Of a DNA stretch of 64,000 nucleotides, positions 52,541 through 64,000 are shown one piece after another (positions within the stretch are counted from its first letter, which is position 1; every line of letters starts with the position of its first letter). The stretch is from a bacterium SCSIO 12643 (lineage in GTDB: Bacteria; Bacteroidota; Bacteroidia; Flavobacteriales_G; Salibacteraceae). Where the stretch lies: the NCBI GenBank assembly GCA_024398135.1, contig CP073750.1, forward strand, positions 2,108,001 to 2,172,000. Direction: 5' to 3'. A program made the translations under genes and the position numbers. Under the pieces are notes generated by a model that made no database searches, had not been told where the DNA came from, and was given only the letters and a program-made list of their open reading frames with translations.

Positions 52541-55500
52541 ATGAGGAAACTATACTTTCTATTTTTATCCGTAATCTTAATTTTTGGCATTCAAACAGGG
52601 TATTCACAATGCTCTATTCTGACCAATGCAATCCAACAAACCCCGACCCTGTCCGGGGGGAGTAGCTATACCAAATTTTCGGTTGCGCATAATCCGGTGA
52701 ATAACGTTTATTATACCCTAAACGGTAATTACGTTCAAACACATAGTACATCAACAGGTGCGATGTTAACTTCTATGTATTCTTCCAACCTAAGATCAAT
52801 TTGGTGGAACTCGAATACAAATGCATTAGAAGGGAATGGATATGGTTCGACTGGGATTGTTCAATTCACATTGAACGCATCTGGTTACCCTACTTCAAGA
52901 TCAACATTGTTTTCCGGATCGAATCACCAACCGAATTCGAATTCTCAAGGAGCTTACGATAACGGGAATAATGAGATTTTCTATTTCTATAATGGCTATA
53001 TCTATCGATATTCAAGAGTTACCGGGTTTTTACTTGGAACAACAGCAGTGAGTGGATTGCCGGTTACAGTAAGTAGTTTAACCAACTATAATGTCGTTTA
53101 CACAGGGTGTTCAGGTAAAGAAGTTGGAGTGTATGATCGTGTAAATAGAAGACTATATTTTGTAAATAAATCAACAGGAGCTTATGTAGGTTATAGTCAA
53201 CTTCCTGTAGGAACATCAACGCCATACTCATACTCTATATCTTTTGATGATGATAAGTTATGGATTTCAAATGGATATTCATGGACGGCTTATAAGGTAT
53301 CTAACTATGGTCTTCAAACGTCTACCATATTAGGCCCATTTTGTGATAACTCAGCGGTGAGTGTAAACTTCACTGTGAACAGTTTAACTTTTAACTCTGG
53401 TAATGTATTTACTGCGCAGTTATCAGATGCCAACGGAAACTTTTCGAGTCCAACATCTATTGGTACCGTTACTTCAACAACAGCAACTACAATTTCAGCA
53501 ACGATTCCAGCAAATACTCCAGCAGGAGGAAGTTATAGAATCAGAGTTGTGTCGTCTAACCCTGTTCAGGTAGGAGGTGATAACGGAACAAATATTACGA
53601 TTAATGTACCGAATGTAAATCTGGGACCAAATGTGTCGATGTGTCCTGGAGATACAACAGTTTTAACCGCACCAGCTGGTGTTTTATCTTATAACTGGTC
53701 TAATGGGAGTATTAATCAGGTCATTAATGTTACATCAGCAGGAACTTATAGTGTGACGGTTTCAAACGGAGTATGTTCTAAAGCGGATACTATCGTAGTA
53801 TCGACATTAACATCTCCATCTCCAACTTTACCGGATACGACTACTGTATGTGCAAATAGTACGATTTTAAACCCTGGGACATTTACATCTTATTTATGGA
53901 ATACAGGAGCAACAAGTTCAACGCTTACTGCAAGTACTTCAGGATTATATAAAGTAACAGTTACTGGTTCAAATACATGTACAGCAGAAGATCAATCTTT
54001 TGTAAACTTATTGAAACCGGAAATTAATACTGGAGATACAGCGATTTGTGCAGGTGATACCGTAGATATGCAAACATTAACCGGATGTTATTTTGTATTG
54101 TCAAGTATGACCAATACCAATTACAATCAGGTGGGTGCAGGTAGTTATACTGGTGATGATAGAGGTGGTATTGCTGTGACACCATCCTATGTGTATTTAA
54201 CAGGTGACAATGGAACAGCGAGATATTCTGCAAGTAACTTGTCTTCACCAATTCAGCTTTCTATTAGAGATGGAATGTTCAGTGATTTGTCAACAGGTCA
54301 GTTGTATTCATTTTGGAACTCGACTCAAAACAATTTTGGCCCGAATACAGTATACGTAAACAACATCAACTCTTTACGTTATATGGATGCTTCATTGAAC
54401 TACACAGGAACGGTAATTCCATTAAGTCAGACTATTAACGCAGGGTATGGTTCTATGGTATTAGCCGGGTCAGGATATGTTGTACTATGGGCCGTAAACG
54501 ATTATCATTTTTATAAAATTGAATTACCTTCAGGTCAGGTAACAGATTTAGGATCATACAATATGACTCCAGCTAGATATGGAGCTGAAAACTGGGCATC
54601 TTGGGGTATTGCAGAGTGTAATGGTACTGGATATAGTTTTGTGTTCAGAGCGAATGGTAATACCAGTTTAGGAACGAATGCCAATGAGATTACCAGATTT
54701 GATTTAACGACTACAACATTTAGTACCGCTTCAGCATTTACCGGACAGAACCTAAGTGATATGGCGAGTATTACGTATTCTCCTTGGCATAGTAGATGGT
54801 ATTTCCACTCTGAGGGATACAACTTTGCAGGTTCTTATTCGGAAAATTTAGGTTATGCTGCAGCGAATCACAATGGAGCAGGAGGGAGTAACTCGTTTAA
54901 TACATTTGCATGGAGCACTGGAGCATCAACACCTTCTATTAGCGTTTCTCCATCTACCACAACAAACTATTCTGTAACCGTTTCGCATGGTTCAATTTCT
55001 TGTTCGGATACTGTGACGGTTACCGTAAATGCAGTACCATCTTTTACCTTATCAGATACATCTACTTATTGTAATGCAGATTCGGTTCAGATTACAGCGA
55101 CAGGAACGTATTCTTCATACGAATGGAGTACGGGCGCTACTACGCAGTCTACTTATGTTTCTAATTTAGGGACATATTTTGCCACGGTAACTAATTCAAA
55201 CAATTGTTCGAGTTCGGACTCTACATATGTGAATCTATTAGATGCCAGAATCGATCAGGTAGATACGACCATTTGTTCATCAGATAGTCTAAGATTAGAA
55301 ACCATGGGCTCTTGTGGGTTACAAGTGCAAGCTCTAACTCAGAATAACCTGACCAGTGCATATAATGTTTCTGGAGATGATAGAGGTGGAATTGCAGTAA
55401 CTCCAAATTATGTATATGTGAATGGCGATAACTATTGTACAAGATATAATACAGCTTTAGGTGCTTCTCAAAGTTTTTCAAGACGTGATGGAATCTTTAG

Positions 55501-58500
55501 TGATTTAAATACGGGGCAGTTATATACATTATGGAGTACTGTGTATAATAACTTCTATTATAACAACAGTGTAATAGCGAATATCAACGCTATTAGAAAA
55601 ATGGATGCGTCATTGAACTATGGTACAACCATTAATTTATCGCAATCAATTAATGCGGGATACGGGTCTATCATGTTAGCAGGAAACGGTTATCTGATCT
55701 TATGGGCGAATTATGACAACAACTTCTATAAGATTCATTTGGATGATGGATTTGTTGAGGTTTTAGGAAACTACGAATTAGATTATATCGATTATGGTTG
55801 TGAGAACTGGGCAACATGGGGTATTGCAGAATGTGGATCTAATGGACATTCAATAGTATTCAGAACAAACTACAACTTTGGTTCTGGAAATTACAATTCA
55901 ATTGGACGATTTGTTATTTCGACAAGTACATTCGAAGAAGTTTCTTCATTTACTTATTTGAGCAATATTGATCTCGCTAACTTTACGTATTCTCCATGGA
56001 ACAACAAATGGTATTTCACACATGAGTATTCGGCTACAGGTTTTGGTCAGTATTCTGAAAATGTAGGTTATGCTGACGCAGTCGTAAATAACTCAACCGG
56101 ATTGAATGGTGGGGATTATCTATGGAGTACAACAGATACCACAGGGTTTATTGTTGTAAACCCAAGTACGACAACAAATTATAGTGTTACGGTGTCAAAT
56201 GGATCTCATTCCTGTTCCGATACAGTAACAATTACTGTGATTCCTTCACCAACTGTTACAGATACTGCAAATGCATTATCATGTTATGGAGATACAAATA
56301 GTACAGCTACTTTAACCGTTTCAGGAGGAACAACACCATATTCTTATAACTGGTCAACTGGAGCCACTACAAGTTCGATTTCTAATCTTGGAACTGGAAT
56401 GTATGTGTATACGGTAACAGGTGGAAATAACTGTCAGGTGATTGATTCGGTTGAGGTGACCAGTCCGACAGAAATCATTTCGACATCAACGATTAATTCT
56501 AGCGCTACTTGTTATGCCACCGCTAATGGTTCGGCTACAGTATCCGTAACCGGAGGTACTCCTGGTTATACCTATTTATGGCCTTCAGGATCTACAGATA
56601 CAACTGACACACAAGTTTCAGGAGGTTGGAATGTAGTGACTATCACAGATGCAAATAGTTGTGTGGTGAATGATTCTGTATTCATGACATCTCCGCTTCA
56701 AATTGATTCTGCGGGACCGATTACATCAACAACGACATTCTATTGTCCTGGAACTTCTGGGAATTTAGTTGCGGCTAACTCAGGAGTAGGAACGGTGACA
56801 AATACGTATTCGAATACTTCAACAACGTTATCACCAACTCCATCTGCAACTTCTCCAATGTATTTTACTTTTAGTTCACTACCGACTACAAATGTAGCAG
56901 GAGGAACATTGAAGATTTATTTCCGTGGTGATTTTGATTCTTCAAATGAGTACCTGTACTTATATGATGAGAATGGTAGTTCAATCGGAAATACGTATTA
57001 CCCATATTATGGTAGCTGTAATACATATACGGTTACAACGTTAACACTAACACAGTTGCAATTGCAAAACTGGTTAGCGGATGGGTCAATTACATTTCAA
57101 GCCACTCCAAGATATACGGTTAATGGAGGTACAACATGTCCGACTCAGGTATATATGGAGTTCACATATGATTATACAGAAAATGTAAAAACTTTTTGGT
57201 TCTCTTCAATTTCTACTGATACTACACAAGCTATTGGTTCGGGAGGAACATTAAATATTACTCCACAAACAACGACAACTTACTATGCAGCGAATTTCGC
57301 AAATGGTTGTAACAGTAGTTTTGATAGTATTACGGTAATTGTACCACCAGCACCGACTACATCATATGTGATGAGTCCAACATCAATTTGTCCGGGAGAA
57401 TCAGCGACTATTAATGCTTATGGTGCTTCATCATATTCCTGGCCAAGTGATCCTACGATCTCAGGTTCGGGTTCAACTGCGACAGTGACTCCAACAACTA
57501 CCACGGATTATTTGGTAACAATTACAAATGCATTCAACTGTTCGTATGTGGATACGATGACCATACCGGTATTGGATGCACCAAGTGGAAATATTCTTAC
57601 GACAACCAACGTGTCGTGTTCTAATGCGAATGATGGACAAGCTGTGGTATATGCAACAGGTGGAACATCTCCATATGCTTATAGCTGGTCAAATGGTAAT
57701 TCAGGAGCGCTACAGTTAGGATTGGGTGCTGGAACTTATTCAGTAACCGTAACAGATAACAATACATGTTCTGATACTATTGCCGTTACTGTAGGTGGAC
57801 CAGTTCCAATGTATTTTAATGCAACAGTGAACAACGTACAATGTAATGGTCAGGGAAATGGATCAGTTACTTTAGCAACAACTGGCGGTACAGCTCCTTA
57901 TAGTTATAGCTGGTCAACGGGGCAAACAGCTTCTTCATTGACTTCATTATCACCAGGTACATATTCTGTAACTGCTACGGATAATGTAGGATGTACTCAT
58001 GATACAACAATTACGATTTCAGAACCTACAGCATTGGTAGCTTCAATTACCGGAACAACACCTGAGACATGTCCAGGTGTTGGTAATGGCTCGATTACTT
58101 CTGGTGTTACAGGAGGAACTACTCCTTACTCATATTCCTGGAGTAATGGTGGGGTAGCTGCAATGATGAATAATCTGAATGGTGGTTTATACAGTTTAAC
58201 CGTTACAGATGCCAATGGATGTACCGCAACAACATCTGGTACGGTGACTACAATTCCGACTACATTATCTTTAAGTATTAATGGTGTGACGAATAACGTT
58301 TGTTACAATGGTACATCTGGTGCAGCGGTAGCAAATGGAACAGGAGGGTCATCTCCATATAATTACAATTGGTCTAATGGTTCAACAACAGCAAACCTGG
58401 CGAATGTTGCTTCAGGAACCTATTATGTTACGGTTACGGATGCAAACTCTTGTCAAAAAGTAGATTCTGTGACATTGACAGAGCCAACACAATTGGTTGT

Positions 58501-61500
58501 GACCAATAGTGTGTTCTCAAATGTAACTTGTTTTGGAACCAATACCGGTAGTGCAACGGTGACTGCTTCTGGTGCAACACCAGCGTATACCTATGCATGG
58601 CCAAATGGAGGAACTACATTTACAAATACAACATTATCTGCTGGAACACATATCGTAACCGTAACAGATGCTAATTCTTGTTCTGATACAACAACGGTAA
58701 CGATTACTGAACCAACGCAAATGACAATGACAGCCATGGTAACGAATGTATCTTGTAACGGATTATCTGATGGTGCCATTGCGGTAATGGCTATGGGAGG
58801 AACTCCAACTTATAGCTATGCTTGGAATTCATCTCAAACCACAAGTACAATCACTGGATTAGCTATTGGAACATATACCGTAACCATTACGGATGGAAAC
58901 AGCTGTGTAAAAGACAGTACGTTTACAATTACACAACCAAATACTTTAGATGCATCAATCAGTTCATCAACAAACATTGCATGTTTTGGTGATGCAACTG
59001 GATCAGCTGTTGCAACAGCAACCGGAGGAACGTCTCCTTATTCTTATGTGTGGTCAAATGCAGCAACTACTGCAACGAATTCTAATTTAAATGCAGGTTC
59101 ATATGTGGTGACCGTAACAGATGCAAATGGATGTAATGACACAGCAAGTGTTGTGTTATCCCAGCCAGCAACACTGTTAAGTGTTTCTATTAGTGATACC
59201 ACACATGTATTATGTAATTCAGCAACTACAGGTTCTGCAACGGCATTAGCTGTTGGAGGAGGAACACCTTATTCATATGCGTGGTCAAATGGTGTATTAG
59301 ATTCAATTAATTCTAATCTGGCTGCTGGATCTTATGTAATAAGTGTAACGGATTCATATGGTTGTGTGAAAAATACGTCTGTGACGATTACGGAGCCATC
59401 AGCATTGTCATTAAGCGTAGGCGCATTAACTCATGTTTCGTGTAATAATGCCGGAGATGGTGCTGCGACTATTTATGCTACAGGAGGAACGATGCCATAT
59501 TCATACTTATGGTCAAATGGATCAGCTACAAATACAATTTCAAGTGTTGGCCCGGGTAACTATGTGCTTACCGTGACAGATGCGAATAGCTGTTCTGATA
59601 CAATATCGGTAACGATTACCGAGCCAACAGCATTAGATGCAGCAATCACAAATTCGCAAAACGTAGCTTGTAATGGTGCGGCAACCGGATTTGCTGTGGT
59701 AACAGGAACCGGAGGAACGATGCCATATTCATATTTATGGTCAACGGGTTCTACAACGGATAGTATTTACAATCAGTTATCAGGTTTCTATAGTGTAACT
59801 ATTACAGATGCAAATGGTTGTGTGGATTCTGCATTAGCGAACTTAACGCAACCAACATCATTGGCATTGGCCCCAGGAACGATTACGAATAACTTATGTT
59901 ATGGTGATGCATTGGGATCTGCACAAGTGGTAGCTACTGGTGGTGCTTCACCGTACAATTATAGTTGGCCAAATGGATCATTAGCGGATACAGCAAATGG
60001 TTTGGGTTCTGGAGCATATGTGGTAACTGTTACCGATGCAAATAACTGTCAGGACACTACATTAATTTCAATTACGGAGCCAGCGGAGTTAGTTACAACG
60101 ATCGATTCTCAAAATGATGTGTTATGTAACGGAGATACAAATGGTCAGGTTATAGTGACAGTAACAGGAGGTGTTCAAAGTTATACTTACGCGTGGAGTA
60201 ATGGTGACGTGGATACCGTATTAAATGATGTGGTCGCAGGAACCTATACAATTACGGTGACGGATAATAACAGTTGTATGGATACACTTTCTGTTACAGT
60301 AAACGAACCAGCGGCATTAGTAGCTTCATTATCTGCGACAAGTGCATTGTGTAATGCGGATACCAATGGAGTTATAGCTTCAACAGTAACTGGAGGGGTA
60401 TTACCATATACTTATAACTGGTCAAATGGAGATACAACAGCAAATGCAGTCAATTTGGGAGCAAACACTTATACGGTAACAATTACCGATGCTAATGGAT
60501 GTGCAGATACGCTGACAGAAGTAATTACTGAACCAGGAGTATTGGATATTACCGTTTCAAGTACAACTGATGTAGATTGTTTCGGTGATTTTACTGGTAC
60601 AGCAACAACTTCTACAACTGGTGGAACCACACCTTACAATTATGTATGGTCTGGAGGACAAACTGTTGATAATCCAACAACTTTAGGTGCTGGATTAAAC
60701 ATAGTGACCATTACCGATGCCAATGGTTGTACAGATACAACATCAACAACGTTAGCAGCATTGTCTAATTTGGATCTTTCTTTAATCAGTATTACAGATA
60801 TCCTTTGTAATGGGGATACTACCGCTGATATTACCGTAACCGCTACAGGAGGCGTTGGAACATTAAACTATACCTGGTCCGTTCCAGGATCTGATAGTGT
60901 ATTAATGAATCAGGGAGCAGGTACTTATGTGTCTTATGTTTCTGATAACTTAGGGTGTATGGATACATTGAATTTTACAGTTACAGAGCCTGCCGCGATC
61001 GTTGGATATAGCGTAACTAATCAAGATCCATTATGTTTCGGTGACGCTACTGGTTGGGCTGAAGTGGCTGCTACTGGAGGTACAGGGACATTAAGTTATT
61101 TATGGCCGTCCGGTGATACTACAACTGCGGATTCATTCTTATTAAGCGGTACGCATGTGGTGACAATTACTGATACTAATAACTGTAGCAGTACTTATTC
61201 AGTATATCTTTCAGATCCGGTTCAATTAACGAATTCAGGTTTCAACGTTACGGATGTGACTTGTTATTTTGATGTAACAGGTACAGTCACGGTAAATCCA
61301 ACCGGAGGAACATTACCATATGCTATGGCATGGTCAAATGGTCAGTCTGGAGCGAATGCGATTGGCCTTTCTGGAGGTGACTATGTGGTGACCGTAACAG
61401 ATGCGAACGGATGTATTTTGATGGATACGGCAATAGTATCTTCAATTAATCCACTTGTTCCATCTATGTTGCCAGCTGATACATCAAATTGTGGATCTCC

Positions 61501-62377
61501 AATTGCGATTACAGCAAATTCAGCGTTTGTGAATTATAGCTGGTCCAATAGTCCGGTGACTTCGGCAACTGTTGTTGTGACAGCTTCAGATACTATTGCT
61601 TTTGCAGGTTTAGATGCAAATGGATGTACGACTTATGATACAGTGGTAGTAAATATCTATCCTGCAGCTTCAGTGAATCTGGGAAGTGATATTTCTAACA
61701 TTTGTGAGGGTACTACTCAGAATATTGATGCTGGAAATGGATTTGCTTCATACATCTGGTCAAATGGTGATACGACATCGATGATCACGGTGACAACCAG
61801 TGGTAATTATGCGGTAACAGCTACGGATACAAATGGTTGTGAAGCCATGGATGATGTAGATGTATCTATGTGGGCACTACCGGTGGTGAATTTAGGTCCG
61901 GACACAGTATTATGTAAGAATCAGGGTGTGACTTCATACGATATTGATGCTGGTGCAGGATTTGTTTCATATCAATGGTCTTCTGGAGGATCGTCTCAAG
62001 TAGAAACAGTGACAACAGATGGTGATTATTCTGTAATTGTAGAAAATAGTAATGGCTGTTTTGGAACAGATACGATAAACGTAACATTCTCTATCTGTAG
62101 TGGAATTGATGAGCCTGGAACAGCATTAAGTATCTCTATGTATCCAAATCCAACTAATGATGATTTAAATATCAATTTAGAAGGATTTATGGGTGAGACT
62201 GTTGAGATTCAAATCATGAGTACAAACGGACAGTTGATTCAGACTAGAAAAATTGAGAGCAATAACCAAACAGAACTTAAGACCAAAATGGATTTAAGTC
62301 AGGTGTCTCAAGGTTTATATTTTGTAGTCATCAAATCCGGAGATCAAGTGAAAGTAGAAAGAATAACCGTCTACTAA
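52541..62377 (+). CDS. Giant T9SS-secreted SprB-repeat surface protein
   Basis: 3278 residues. Signal peptide to about 22 (ending GYSQ). A propeller-like region follows (about 24-280), then Ig-like domains. Two of these are interrupted by a duplicated module of about 260 residues (about 516-778 and 925-1184) and a third by a CUB-like beta domain (about 1410-1550). Nineteen SprB repeats of about 75 residues come next: two at 1235-1387 and seventeen without break at about 1682-2970. Each has the pattern CNG...GGT-PYSY-WSNG...VTVTDANGC...TEP with two cysteines. Three Ig-like domains and a type A T9SS sorting domain (about 3190-3278, SMYPNPTNDDLNI) end it. Likely anchored at the cell surface as adhesin. 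Confidence 0.93.
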   Translation: MRKLYFLFLSVILIFGIQTGYSQCSILTNAIQQTPTLSGGSSYTKFSVAHNPVNNVYYTLNGNYVQTHSTSTGAMLTSMYSSNLRSIWWNSNTNALEGNGYGSTGIVQFTLNASGYPTSRSTLFSGSNHQPNSNSQGAYDNGNNEIFYFYNGYIYRYSRVTGFLLGTTAVSGLPVTVSSLTNYNVVYTGCSGKEVGVYDRVNRRLYFVNKSTGAYVGYSQLPVGTSTPYSYSISFDDDKLWISNGYSWTAYKVSNYGLQTSTILGPFCDNSAVSVNFTVNSLTFNSGNVFTAQLSDANGNFSSPTSIGTVTSTTATTISATIPANTPAGGSYRIRVVSSNPVQVGGDNGTNITINVPNVNLGPNVSMCPGDTTVLTAPAGVLSYNWSNGSINQVINVTSAGTYSVTVSNGVCSKADTIVVSTLTSPSPTLPDTTTVCANSTILNPGTFTSYLWNTGATSSTLTASTSGLYKVTVTGSNTCTAEDQSFVNLLKPEINTGDTAICAGDTVDMQTLTGCYFVLSSMTNTNYNQVGAGSYTGDDRGGIAVTPSYVYLTGDNGTARYSASNLSSPIQLSIRDGMFSDLSTGQLYSFWNSTQNNFGPNTVYVNNINSLRYMDASLNYTGTVIPLSQTINAGYGSMVLAGSGYVVLWAVNDYHFYKIELPSGQVTDLGSYNMTPARYGAENWASWGIAECNGTGYSFVFRANGNTSLGTNANEITRFDLTTTTFSTASAFTGQNLSDMASITYSPWHSRWYFHSEGYNFAGSYSENLGYAAANHNGAGGSNSFNTFAWSTGASTPSISVSPSTTTNYSVTVSHGSISCSDTVTVTVNAVPSFTLSDTSTYCNADSVQITATGTYSSYEWSTGATTQSTYVSNLGTYFATVTNSNNCSSSDSTYVNLLDARIDQVDTTICSSDSLRLETMGSCGLQVQALTQNNLTSAYNVSGDDRGGIAVTPNYVYVNGDNYCTRYNTALGASQSFSRRDGIFSDLNTGQLYTLWSTVYNNFYYNNSVIANINAIRKMDASLNYGTTINLSQSINAGYGSIMLAGNGYLILWANYDNNFYKIHLDDGFVEVLGNYELDYIDYGCENWATWGIAECGSNGHSIVFRTNYNFGSGNYNSIGRFVISTSTFEEVSSFTYLSNIDLANFTYSPWNNKWYFTHEYSATGFGQYSENVGYADAVVNNSTGLNGGDYLWSTTDTTGFIVVNPSTTTNYSVTVSNGSHSCSDTVTITVIPSPTVTDTANALSCYGDTNSTATLTVSGGTTPYSYNWSTGATTSSISNLGTGMYVYTVTGGNNCQVIDSVEVTSPTEIISTSTINSSATCYATANGSATVSVTGGTPGYTYLWPSGSTDTTDTQVSGGWNVVTITDANSCVVNDSVFMTSPLQIDSAGPITSTTTFYCPGTSGNLVAANSGVGTVTNTYSNTSTTLSPTPSATSPMYFTFSSLPTTNVAGGTLKIYFRGDFDSSNEYLYLYDENGSSIGNTYYPYYGSCNTYTVTTLTLTQLQLQNWLADGSITFQATPRYTVNGGTTCPTQVYMEFTYDYTENVKTFWFSSISTDTTQAIGSGGTLNITPQTTTTYYAANFANGCNSSFDSITVIVPPAPTTSYVMSPTSICPGESATINAYGASSYSWPSDPTISGSGSTATVTPTTTTDYLVTITNAFNCSYVDTMTIPVLDAPSGNILTTTNVSCSNANDGQAVVYATGGTSPYAYSWSNGNSGALQLGLGAGTYSVTVTDNNTCSDTIAVTVGGPVPMYFNATVNNVQCNGQGNGSVTLATTGGTAPYSYSWSTGQTASSLTSLSPGTYSVTATDNVGCTHDTTITISEPTALVASITGTTPETCPGVGNGSITSGVTGGTTPYSYSWSNGGVAAMMNNLNGGLYSLTVTDANGCTATTSGTVTTIPTTLSLSINGVTNNVCYNGTSGAAVANGTGGSSPYNYNWSNGSTTANLANVASGTYYVTVTDANSCQKVDSVTLTEPTQLVVTNSVFSNVTCFGTNTGSATVTASGATPAYTYAWPNGGTTFTNTTLSAGTHIVTVTDANSCSDTTTVTITEPTQMTMTAMVTNVSCNGLSDGAIAVMAMGGTPTYSYAWNSSQTTSTITGLAIGTYTVTITDGNSCVKDSTFTITQPNTLDASISSSTNIACFGDATGSAVATATGGTSPYSYVWSNAATTATNSNLNAGSYVVTVTDANGCNDTASVVLSQPATLLSVSISDTTHVLCNSATTGSATALAVGGGTPYSYAWSNGVLDSINSNLAAGSYVISVTDSYGCVKNTSVTITEPSALSLSVGALTHVSCNNAGDGAATIYATGGTMPYSYLWSNGSATNTISSVGPGNYVLTVTDANSCSDTISVTITEPTALDAAITNSQNVACNGAATGFAVVTGTGGTMPYSYLWSTGSTTDSIYNQLSGFYSVTITDANGCVDSALANLTQPTSLALAPGTITNNLCYGDALGSAQVVATGGASPYNYSWPNGSLADTANGLGSGAYVVTVTDANNCQDTTLISITEPAELVTTIDSQNDVLCNGDTNGQVIVTVTGGVQSYTYAWSNGDVDTVLNDVVAGTYTITVTDNNSCMDTLSVTVNEPAALVASLSATSALCNADTNGVIASTVTGGVLPYTYNWSNGDTTANAVNLGANTYTVTITDANGCADTLTEVITEPGVLDITVSSTTDVDCFGDFTGTATTSTTGGTTPYNYVWSGGQTVDNPTTLGAGLNIVTITDANGCTDTTSTTLAALSNLDLSLISITDILCNGDTTADITVTATGGVGTLNYTWSVPGSDSVLMNQGAGTYVSYVSDNLGCMDTLNFTVTEPAAIVGYSVTNQDPLCFGDATGWAEVAATGGTGTLSYLWPSGDTTTADSFLLSGTHVVTITDTNNCSSTYSVYLSDPVQLTNSGFNVTDVTCYFDVTGTVTVNPTGGTLPYAMAWSNGQSGANAIGLSGGDYVVTVTDANGCILMDTAIVSSINPLVPSMLPADTSNCGSPIAITANSAFVNYSWSNSPVTSATVVVTASDTIAFAGLDANGCTTYDTVVVNIYPAASVNLGSDISNICEGTTQNIDAGNGFASYIWSNGDTTSMITVTTSGNYAVTATDTNGCEAMDDVDVSMWALPVVNLGPDTVLCKNQGVTSYDIDAGAGFVSYQWSSGGSSQVETVTTDGDYSVIVENSNGCFGTDTINVTFSICSGIDEPGTALSISMYPNPTNDDLNINLEGFMGETVEIQIMSTNGQLIQTRKIESNNQTELKTKMDLSQVSQGLYFVVIKSGDQVKVERITVY
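54086..54876 (+). repeat. First copy of a duplicated nested module
   Basis: Codes residues about 516-778 of the giant protein. It shares GDDRGGIAVTP, RDGMFSDL-TGQLY, MDASLNY, INAGYGSM-LAG-GY and ENWASWGIAEC with the second copy at 55313-56091. Each copy sits inside an Ig-like domain, between the CxGD strand and the YxWSTG strand. Confidence 0.8.
55313..56091 (+). repeat. Second copy of the duplicated nested module
   Basis: Codes residues about 925-1184. Shared motifs with the first copy: GDDRGGIAVTP, RDGIFSDLNTGQLY, MDASLNY, INAGYGSIMLAGNGYL, ENWATWGIAEC, TYSPWNNKWYF. The copies differ widely at other positions, so the duplication is old. Confidence 0.8.
56245..61449 (+). repeat. SprB repeat array
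   Basis: Nineteen units of about 225-230 bases: two at 56245-56703 and seventeen in a row from 57584. The break (about 56704-57583) holds an Ig-like domain with a nested CUB-like region and a further Ig-like domain. The units are diverged, with no long identical DNA stretches, so copy number is likely stable. Confidence 0.85.
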
Positions 62378-62545: not shown

Positions 62546-64000
62546 ATGAAATATATACTACTACTGATTTTTTCGATTCTGTCCGGGTTTCTTTTGGCAC
62601 AAGGTAAAATAGGTACAGTAGAGTACGAACAGTTAAAAGAAGCGGGTAAGCTGAATCCTGTTGGCAATTATAGAATTGTAAACTCTTCAACATCATCGAA
62701 TATTGTGATTGCTCCTGATTTTGGACGAAACAGAAGTAGAGCTGCGGGAGATTGTAGTTGTTACATTGAACCGGATTCAACCTATACTTTGGCTGTGGGC
62801 CCGGATGACGATGGGAGTTCTCCATTGATTAACCTACCATTCAATTTTTGTTTTTATGGTACAAACAACAACTCGGTATATATAAATATCAATGGAAATG
62901 TTTCGTTCGGAACACCTTATTCCACTTTCTCGGGCACGTCATTCCCAAGTAACAACTTTGTTATGGTGGCTCCTTTTTGGGGAGATGTGGATACAAGGTT
63001 GGATGCTAATGGAGTTGCTGGTGGAGAGATTTGGTATAAAATCACACCAACAGCAATGATTGTTAACTGGGTGGATGTTGGATATTATAACAGAGAAAAT
63101 GATAAGCGCAATACTTTTCAATTGATTATAACCGATGGTACCGACCCGCTAATTCCAAATGGAAATAATGTAGCCTTTTGTTATAAAGATATGCAATGGA
63201 CTACGGGAGCAGCATCAAATGGAGTCAACGGATTTGGAGGGATTGCAGCAACTGTTGGAGCCAATTTAGGAAATGGTGTGGATTTCATTCAGTTTGGGCG
63301 ATTTGATACCGCTGGAACGGCTTATGATGGACCATATAGCAACAATGATGGTGTTTCATGGTTAGATGATCAATCTATGTATTTTAATGCATGTAACAGC
63401 TCAAATACACCACCTATCGTAACCGGATTGAACTCTTGTGATACGATTGGTGTATGTAGAGGAGATACATTAAACTTTAATTTATCGTTTATTTCGCCAG
63501 AGCAAAACCAAATAACTGCGATTACTGTGAATACACCTTTCCCTGGACTCACAGTTGTAAATAATATAGCTGGAGTAAATGCATCATTAGATGCTTATGT
63601 AGTTGGTGGTCTGACAAATGTGGGATATCATAATTTACAAATCATGGCAATTGATAATGGGACACCTGCGGAAACAACATATGTGGATTTGGTCATATTT
63701 GTGGACAGTACAATTTTGAACCCGATTATAACTAGTAGTGATTCGACTTTATGCATTGGAGATTCAACCTTATTAGATGTAGGAACCGGATACGATAGTT
63801 ATAAGTGGAGTACCGGAGCACTTGATACCAATTCAATTGTCGGTTATACCGGATTATATACAGTGACCGTTACAAAAGGGTTGTGTGAAAAGTCATCAGC
63901 GCAATACAATGTGGTAACCATTGACCCGCAACCGGTAATTAACGAAGATAAATTGTGTGCAGGAGATAGTTTGGAATTGTATACCTACCAACAGTATGAT
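62546..64000 (+). CDS. Large secreted protein with a NIDO domain (3' end outside window)
   Basis: The frame from the ATG at 62546 is open to the window end (485 codons), so the gene is cut off. A signal peptide of about 18 residues ends LLAQ. After a linker with paired Cys (GDCSCYIEPD) comes a nidogen-like (NIDO) region (about 95-285): LPFNFCFYG, FVMVAPFWGDVDTR, IWYKITPTAMIVNW, TFQLIITDG, and FGGIAATVGAN. From about residue 395 an Ig-like domain begins (CIGDSTLLDVGTGYDSYKWSTG), the same type as in the preceding giant protein. It is likely another T9SS surface protein; the sorting domain would lie beyond the window. Confidence 0.85.
   Translation, partial: MKYILLLIFSILSGFLLAQGKIGTVEYEQLKEAGKLNPVGNYRIVNSSTSSNIVIAPDFGRNRSRAAGDCSCYIEPDSTYTLAVGPDDDGSSPLINLPFNFCFYGTNNNSVYININGNVSFGTPYSTFSGTSFPSNNFVMVAPFWGDVDTRLDANGVAGGEIWYKITPTAMIVNWVDVGYYNRENDKRNTFQLIITDGTDPLIPNGNNVAFCYKDMQWTTGAASNGVNGFGGIAATVGANLGNGVDFIQFGRFDTAGTAYDGPYSNNDGVSWLDDQSMYFNACNSSNTPPIVTGLNSCDTIGVCRGDTLNFNLSFISPEQNQITAITVNTPFPGLTVVNNIAGVNASLDAYVVGGLTNVGYHNLQIMAIDNGTPAETTYVDLVIFVDSTILNPIITSSDSTLCIGDSTLLDVGTGYDSYKWSTGALDTNSIVGYTGLYTVTVTKGLCEKSSAQYNVVTIDPQPVINEDKLCAGDSLELYTYQQYD

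Follow-up and report, generated by a model that had tools for sequence, protein, structure and literature searches.

The window, a 64,000-nucleotide stretch of the genome of the Salibacteraceae bacterium SCSIO 12643, encodes a 3278-aa protein in which a module of about 260 residues occurs twice, each time next to sequence typical of Ig-like domains. This raises several questions regarding the nature of the module, whether it truly interrupts an Ig-like domain, how the arrangement arose and what a domain carried in this manner may do.

The host is a giant with a type A sorting tail

The protein (Table 1) carries a signal peptide followed by Gln-Cys, assigned by eye from the sequence, and a C-terminal domain matching PF18962 (53.8 bits, cut-off 27) and TIGR04183 (40.4 bits, cut-off 23); both features of a type A T9SS substrate are hence present. 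Apart from this Por_Secre_tail domain, the only Pfam family found is the SprB repeat (PF13573, 19 copies). As judged from these sequence features, the type A T9SS tail and the SprB repeats place the giant at the cell surface.

The N-terminal domain (residues 23–275) is strongly kept in orthologues and has no Pfam match. A relation to the inserted module was not detected by profile comparison (hhalign, prob 0.7%), and the domain resembles another beta-repeat, propeller-like domain. The next gene (window 62546–64000, continuing in L068) encodes an 833-aa protein of the NIDO (nidogen-like) kind; it also has Ig-like and PKD-like parts, ends in a gliding-type C-terminal domain and is likely a second surface protein adjoining the giant.

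Similar to SprB, the gliding adhesin of Flavobacterium johnsoniae, the window protein is a giant with the hallmarks of T9SS export, and it contains SprB repeats. The tail of SprB, however, is of type B, and sprF lies next to its gene (PMC9143113). With a tail of type A and the NIDO/Ig/PKD gene in the place of sprF, the window protein was ruled out as a SprB orthologue.

Table 1. Features of the 3278-aa protein and their positions in the window
Feature	Residues	Window position	Strand	Basis
Whole ORF: secreted surface protein (signal peptide, N-terminal domain, Ig-like domains of which three split, SprB repeats, T9SS tail)		52541..62377	+	
N-terminal domain, repetitive, beta-rich	23–275	52607..53365	+	jackhmmer
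Plain Ig-like domain opening duplicated unit 1	425–496	53813..54028	+	49% identity to plain Ig of unit 2
Split Ig 1, strands A-B (CAGDTVDMQTL)	497–514	54029..54082	+	DSSP strands in AF2 model; joined-flank test
Module copy 1, predicted five-bladed beta-propeller	515–787	54083..54901 (conserved core 54086–54868)	+	alignment; AF2; fold search
Split Ig 1, strands C-G (FAWSTG...VTVTV)	788–833	54902..55039	+	AF2 model; joined-flank test
Plain Ig-like domain opening duplicated unit 2	834–902	55040..55246	+	alignment to unit 1
Split Ig 2, strands A-B (CSSDSLRLET)	903–921	55247..55303	+	alignment; joined-flank test
Module copy 2, predicted propeller	922–1190	55304..56110 (conserved core 55313–56083)	+	alignment; genome search
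Split Ig 2, strands C-G	1191–1237	56111..56251	+	alignment; joined-flank test
Third split Ig (Ig_7), N-terminal part	1391–1414	56711..56782	+	Ig_7 profile
Different inserted domain (U3), about 134 aa, putatively jelly-roll-like	1415–1548	56783..57184	+	jackhmmer; orthologues
Third split Ig (Ig_7), C-terminal part	1549–1612	57185..57376	+	Ig_7 profile
T9SS type A sorting domain		62138..62371	+	PF18962 / TIGR04183

The module was duplicated together with its host and a preceding Ig

The two module copies align with 139 of 267 residues identical (52%) at a score of 676, compared with 36 ± 9 for shuffled sequences, and are 70% identical at the DNA level. As described in the initial annotation, both contain the motifs GDDRGGIAVTP (beginning at residues 538 and 945), MDASLNY (615 and 1021) and ENWATWGIAEC, the last more exactly ENWA[ST]WGIAEC (683 and 1088). 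Each copy also lies, as proposed there, inside an Ig-like domain, the site being located here between its strands B and C. Copy 1 is preceded by CAGD and followed by FAWSTG; copy 2 is preceded by CSSD, which departs from a strict CxGD, and followed by YLWSTT. Beyond these two copies, the module occurs nowhere else in the 4.1-Mb single-contig genome.

Similarity between the copies extends beyond the module on both sides. The two plain Igs that open the units are mutual best matches among the plain Igs of the protein, and the split hosts, once joined, score 155 to each other versus at most 54 to any plain Ig. Both relations indicate, at the level of sequence comparison, that the duplicated unit consists of a plain Ig, a split Ig and the propeller, altogether about 408 aa. 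The earlier proposal that a compound unit had been duplicated thus held, whereas its extent had been underestimated by the preceding uninterrupted Ig. As relatives from five other genomes have the identical two-copy layout, an assembly artefact or collapsed repeat was ruled out.

The flanks of the module are predicted to complete one Ig-like domain

Five uninterrupted Igs of this protein were used to build a profile, on which the flanks, once joined with the module removed, score 30.4 bits (split Ig 1) and 27.3 bits (split Ig 2), whereas the N-side flanks alone reach 12.9 and 12.3 bits and the C-side flanks alone 22.0 and 21.9 bits. As a control, 199 joins of random module pieces scored at most 4.4 bits. 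In the AF2 model, Ig-type strands are present both before the module (501–503, 508–511) and after it (788–791, 799–802, 808–816, 819–830), the Ig parts being modelled less confidently (pLDDT about 60–84) than the propeller. Joined-flank profiles and AF2 model, the latter following the structure prediction that the initial annotation had suggested, both depict a globular domain inserted inside the Ig-like sandwich of a giant adhesin, in line with the nesting originally proposed.

The Pfam model of Ig_7 (PF19081, Ig-like domain CHU_C associated) describes an uninterrupted domain. Ig_7 hosts the third insert of this protein as well as the F-G hairpin inserts of relatives (see below), whereas the two propeller hosts of the window stay below the Ig_7 cut-off even when joined.

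The module is a predicted propeller of olfactomedin-like fold

The AF2 model, built with 21 homologues, has a pLDDT of 86 and a pTM of 0.80. Read from the strand list, the strands between residues 540 and 779 group into four complete four-stranded blades and a fifth with three strands, to which strand 517–523 can supply the outer strand. The module is accordingly modelled as a five-bladed beta-propeller whose N-terminal strand closes the last blade, a blade count that rests on strand order and not on coordinates.

In fold searches with the window model (VIA-align), NHL, olfactomedin and glutaminyl-cyclase propellers came out on top with Z about 12, tied within 1 Z, the best matches including six-bladed NHL domains alongside five-bladed olfactomedin and glutaminyl cyclase (Z 11.9). 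For the model of the relative L037, in which the module sits in the F-G hairpin, olfactomedin domains hold most of the top ranks, the best match being olfactomedin 4rmk (Z 13.6, rmsd 3.5, 217 residues). Ranking by Foldseek E-value yielded a mix of six-bladed designs, Kelch and YVTN propellers and was left out of the family assignment. Model and fold searches therefore agree with the propeller-like character first noticed from the sequence.

Sequence searches of Pfam, NCBIfam, PHROGs and PDB with the module returned no family match, in keeping with the initial annotation, whose author knew no named family for it. Seventeen module members searched against Pfam up to E 10 gave no match, olfactomedin PF02191 included; a PDB profile search up to E 10 gave none either, and the module was not found in viral contigs. 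Since these searches match no family, we do not name the module an olfactomedin and describe it, by prediction, as an unnamed five-bladed propeller of olfactomedin-like fold. In the olfactomedin domain of LPHN3 (latrophilin 3), an N-terminal strand, beta0, completes the last blade (PMC4396693). The module would thus resemble the five-bladed olfactomedin domains of latrophilin, myocilin and noelin in its predicted fold and N-terminal strand closure, and differs from them in being bacterial, in being inserted in an Ig and in lacking detected sequence similarity. A further trait of the olfactomedin family is a Ca2+ site (Asp, Asn, Asp) in the central channel.

Relatives carry the module at alternative sites

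By profile search, 10 of 35 genomes in the family have the module, as do 12 of 395 sampled genomes of the class (three with weak or partial matches) and 3 of 395 of the phylum, the window's own genome being counted each time. It was further found at 14 loci in GTDB genomes, including records labelled Flavobacteriales, Crocinitomicaceae, Salibacteraceae, Sphingobacteriales and Chitinophaga.

Three settings were encountered. In the first, the module is inserted in the B-C loop, doubly in giants with SprB repeats and singly in proteins of about 980 aa, which bears out the suggestion to look for the same insertion in other genomes. The second is an insertion in the F-G hairpin of Ig_7 in proteins of about 700–950 aa, where an F strand (TTTYYV...) precedes the module and a G strand with C...VTV follows it; all FG-type proteins with a complete reading carry a T9SS-type tail. 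When joined, three of these hosts score 49.0, 46.1 and 54.1 bits on Ig_7 (cut-off 27.3) and a fourth, L039, scores 19.9. In the third setting, the module stands by itself at the mature N-terminus of proteins from two distant genomes of the phylum (L061 and L062, open frames of 4796 and 4272 aa), in which it is followed, by reading of the sequence, by IPT/TIG-like sequence. Neither the F-G and free-standing settings nor the different domain in the B-C loop of the third Ig (see below) had been foreseen in the initial annotation.

An unrooted tree of 30 modules separates 15 BC-loop copies from 15 FG or free copies (support 97/94); the FG setting is the more widespread of the two. Next to the twelve copies of two-copy proteins stands a clade made up of the three single-copy BC proteins (89/81), which are probably their sister group. 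This grouping, together with the joint duplication of plain and split Ig, favours the earlier view of a single insertion followed by duplication of the whole compound unit. Window copy 1 shares 67% identity with its counterpart, copy 1, in the congener and 53% with copy 2 of its own protein, and these pairwise identities date the duplication, as judged from the proteins, to before the split from the congener.

Other Ig-like domains are interrupted by other domains

The B-C loop of the third split Ig of the window protein holds a domain, U3, that is unrelated to the propeller module. The Ig_7 score of this Ig rises from 22.1 bits with the insert to 33.3 bits with the flanks joined, against a cut-off of 27.3. 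U3 is kept in orthologues, and FG-type relatives (L031, L037, L064-L066) have it as a free-standing N-terminal domain.

Elsewhere in the same genome, L069 (G000:C1:3847285-3847467 and downstream), a secreted protein that resembles metalloproteases and has PKD and CUB-like parts, contains an Ig_7 split in its F-G hairpin by a beta domain of about 138 aa; here the score increases from 39.4 to 49.0 bits once the flanks are joined, and the insert (LESVEVYAAGGG...YYYFFYNW) has no Pfam match. The U3 and L069 inserts therefore make interrupted Igs a habit of this group and not a one-off accident. Separately, an Ig-like domain at L090:1732-2589 of this genome is seemingly split after CSGQSTQLEV by a domain of about 210 aa (HQIIYTASELQALGM...), after which YTWTPSAGL follows; this Ig-like domain has no Pfam match with or without the insert.

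A probable binding head

Nine charged residues of the module are near-invariant (D539, D540, R541, D556, R561, E683, R703, E758 and E768), each being kept in 23–29 of 30 modules across BC, FG and free copies. By strand topology, they lie on the face away from the Ig junction, and entry and exit of the propeller share one face. Against a binding role, the least conserved parts (0.34) are the propeller loops between strands B and C, which are frequently binding loops.

The reading we regard as rather probable is that the split Igs are mounts projecting a ligand-binding propeller, a T9SS counterpart of the split domains of RTX adhesins. In such a model, a very long T9SS-exported surface protein would have a stalk of Ig-like and SprB domains, each split Ig would hold its propeller sideways off this stalk, and the opposite face, as predicted from the modelled topology, would be left free for a ligand such as a glycan, matrix or another cell surface. 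Binding and adhesion are here proposed by analogy. As for its history, a single insertion of the module into the BC loop would have taken place in this lineage, and later tandem duplication of the "plain Ig + split Ig" unit would have given rise to two heads.

Two other functions appear unlikely to a similar degree. The propeller could be an enzyme head on a stalk, for example glutaminyl-cyclase-like or glycoside-acting, with the charged residues being catalytic; the fold matches do include glutaminyl cyclases (3mbr, Z 11.9) and GH62 arabinofuranosidases (Z about 9.5), and the Asp/Glu/Arg cluster lies, by topology, on one face. However, the module sequence matches none of the enzyme families in Pfam, NCBIfam or PDB, fold matches at about 7–19% identity carry no function, and a pair of diverged copies carried by an adhesin-like stalk is more easily explained by binding than by catalysis. 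Alternatively, the modules could be structural spacers, or make homophilic cell-cell contacts, stiffening or cross-linking the stalk without an external ligand. Their tandem position within the Ig/SprB stalk and the location of the conserved sequence, largely in inner strands and A-B turns, would be compatible with such a role, which is however at odds with the free-standing modules of L061 and L062, where the conserved residues are retained, and with single-copy modules in proteins of about 700–990 aa that have no long stalks.

A reading in which the module is an ordinary tandem domain, bordered by linkers or by two half-domains instead of one interrupted Ig, is very improbable. In its favour, the A-B strands ahead of the module are short and have a pLDDT of 65–72. 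Against it, the joined flanks score roughly the sum of the two halves where random joins fall short, the third split Ig needs joining to clear the Ig_7 cut-off, joining also raises the scores of FG-type hosts, and the two different loops used each lie between strands of the same sandwich.

Beyond the propeller mount itself, we tentatively consider a broader possibility, on which we are less confident, namely that Ig stalks of Bacteroidota T9SS proteins are general sockets whose B-C loop and F-G hairpin take interchangeable heads (at least the propeller, U3 and the L069 beta-sandwich), the propeller being an olfactomedin-fold bacterial adhesion domain with at least two insertion routes. If this were true, interrupted Igs would point to unknown ligand-binding domains, and looking for them would be a direct route to the binding heads of very long, poorly annotated Bacteroidota surface proteins. 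Moreover, with one module found in two loops and free-standing, nature provides a clean test case of domain insertion.

Comparison with the split domains of RTX adhesins

RTX adhesins carry their ligand-binding domains on Ig-like split domains that hold them off the adhesin axis; both termini of the binding domain lie on one side, with the binding site at the far end (PMC12077191, PMC10865825). As in MpIBP, V. cholerae FrhA and A. hydrophila AhLap, where the ligand-binding domain emerges from within an Ig-like beta-sandwich, entry and exit of the module are, by prediction, on one side. RTX adhesins are type I-secreted, with PA14, CBM, PBD, RTX or vWFA domains as inserts, and PMC12077191 mentions neither a propeller nor a type IX system. 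The window protein differs from them in its T9SS-type export signals and in its insert, a predicted five-bladed propeller.

Overall, these results define an unnamed propeller family and extend the split Ig mount, known from type I-secreted RTX adhesins, to an unrelated type IX system. While the split-domain principle itself is already known, the domain family, its alternative insertion sites and the T9SS version of this principle are new.
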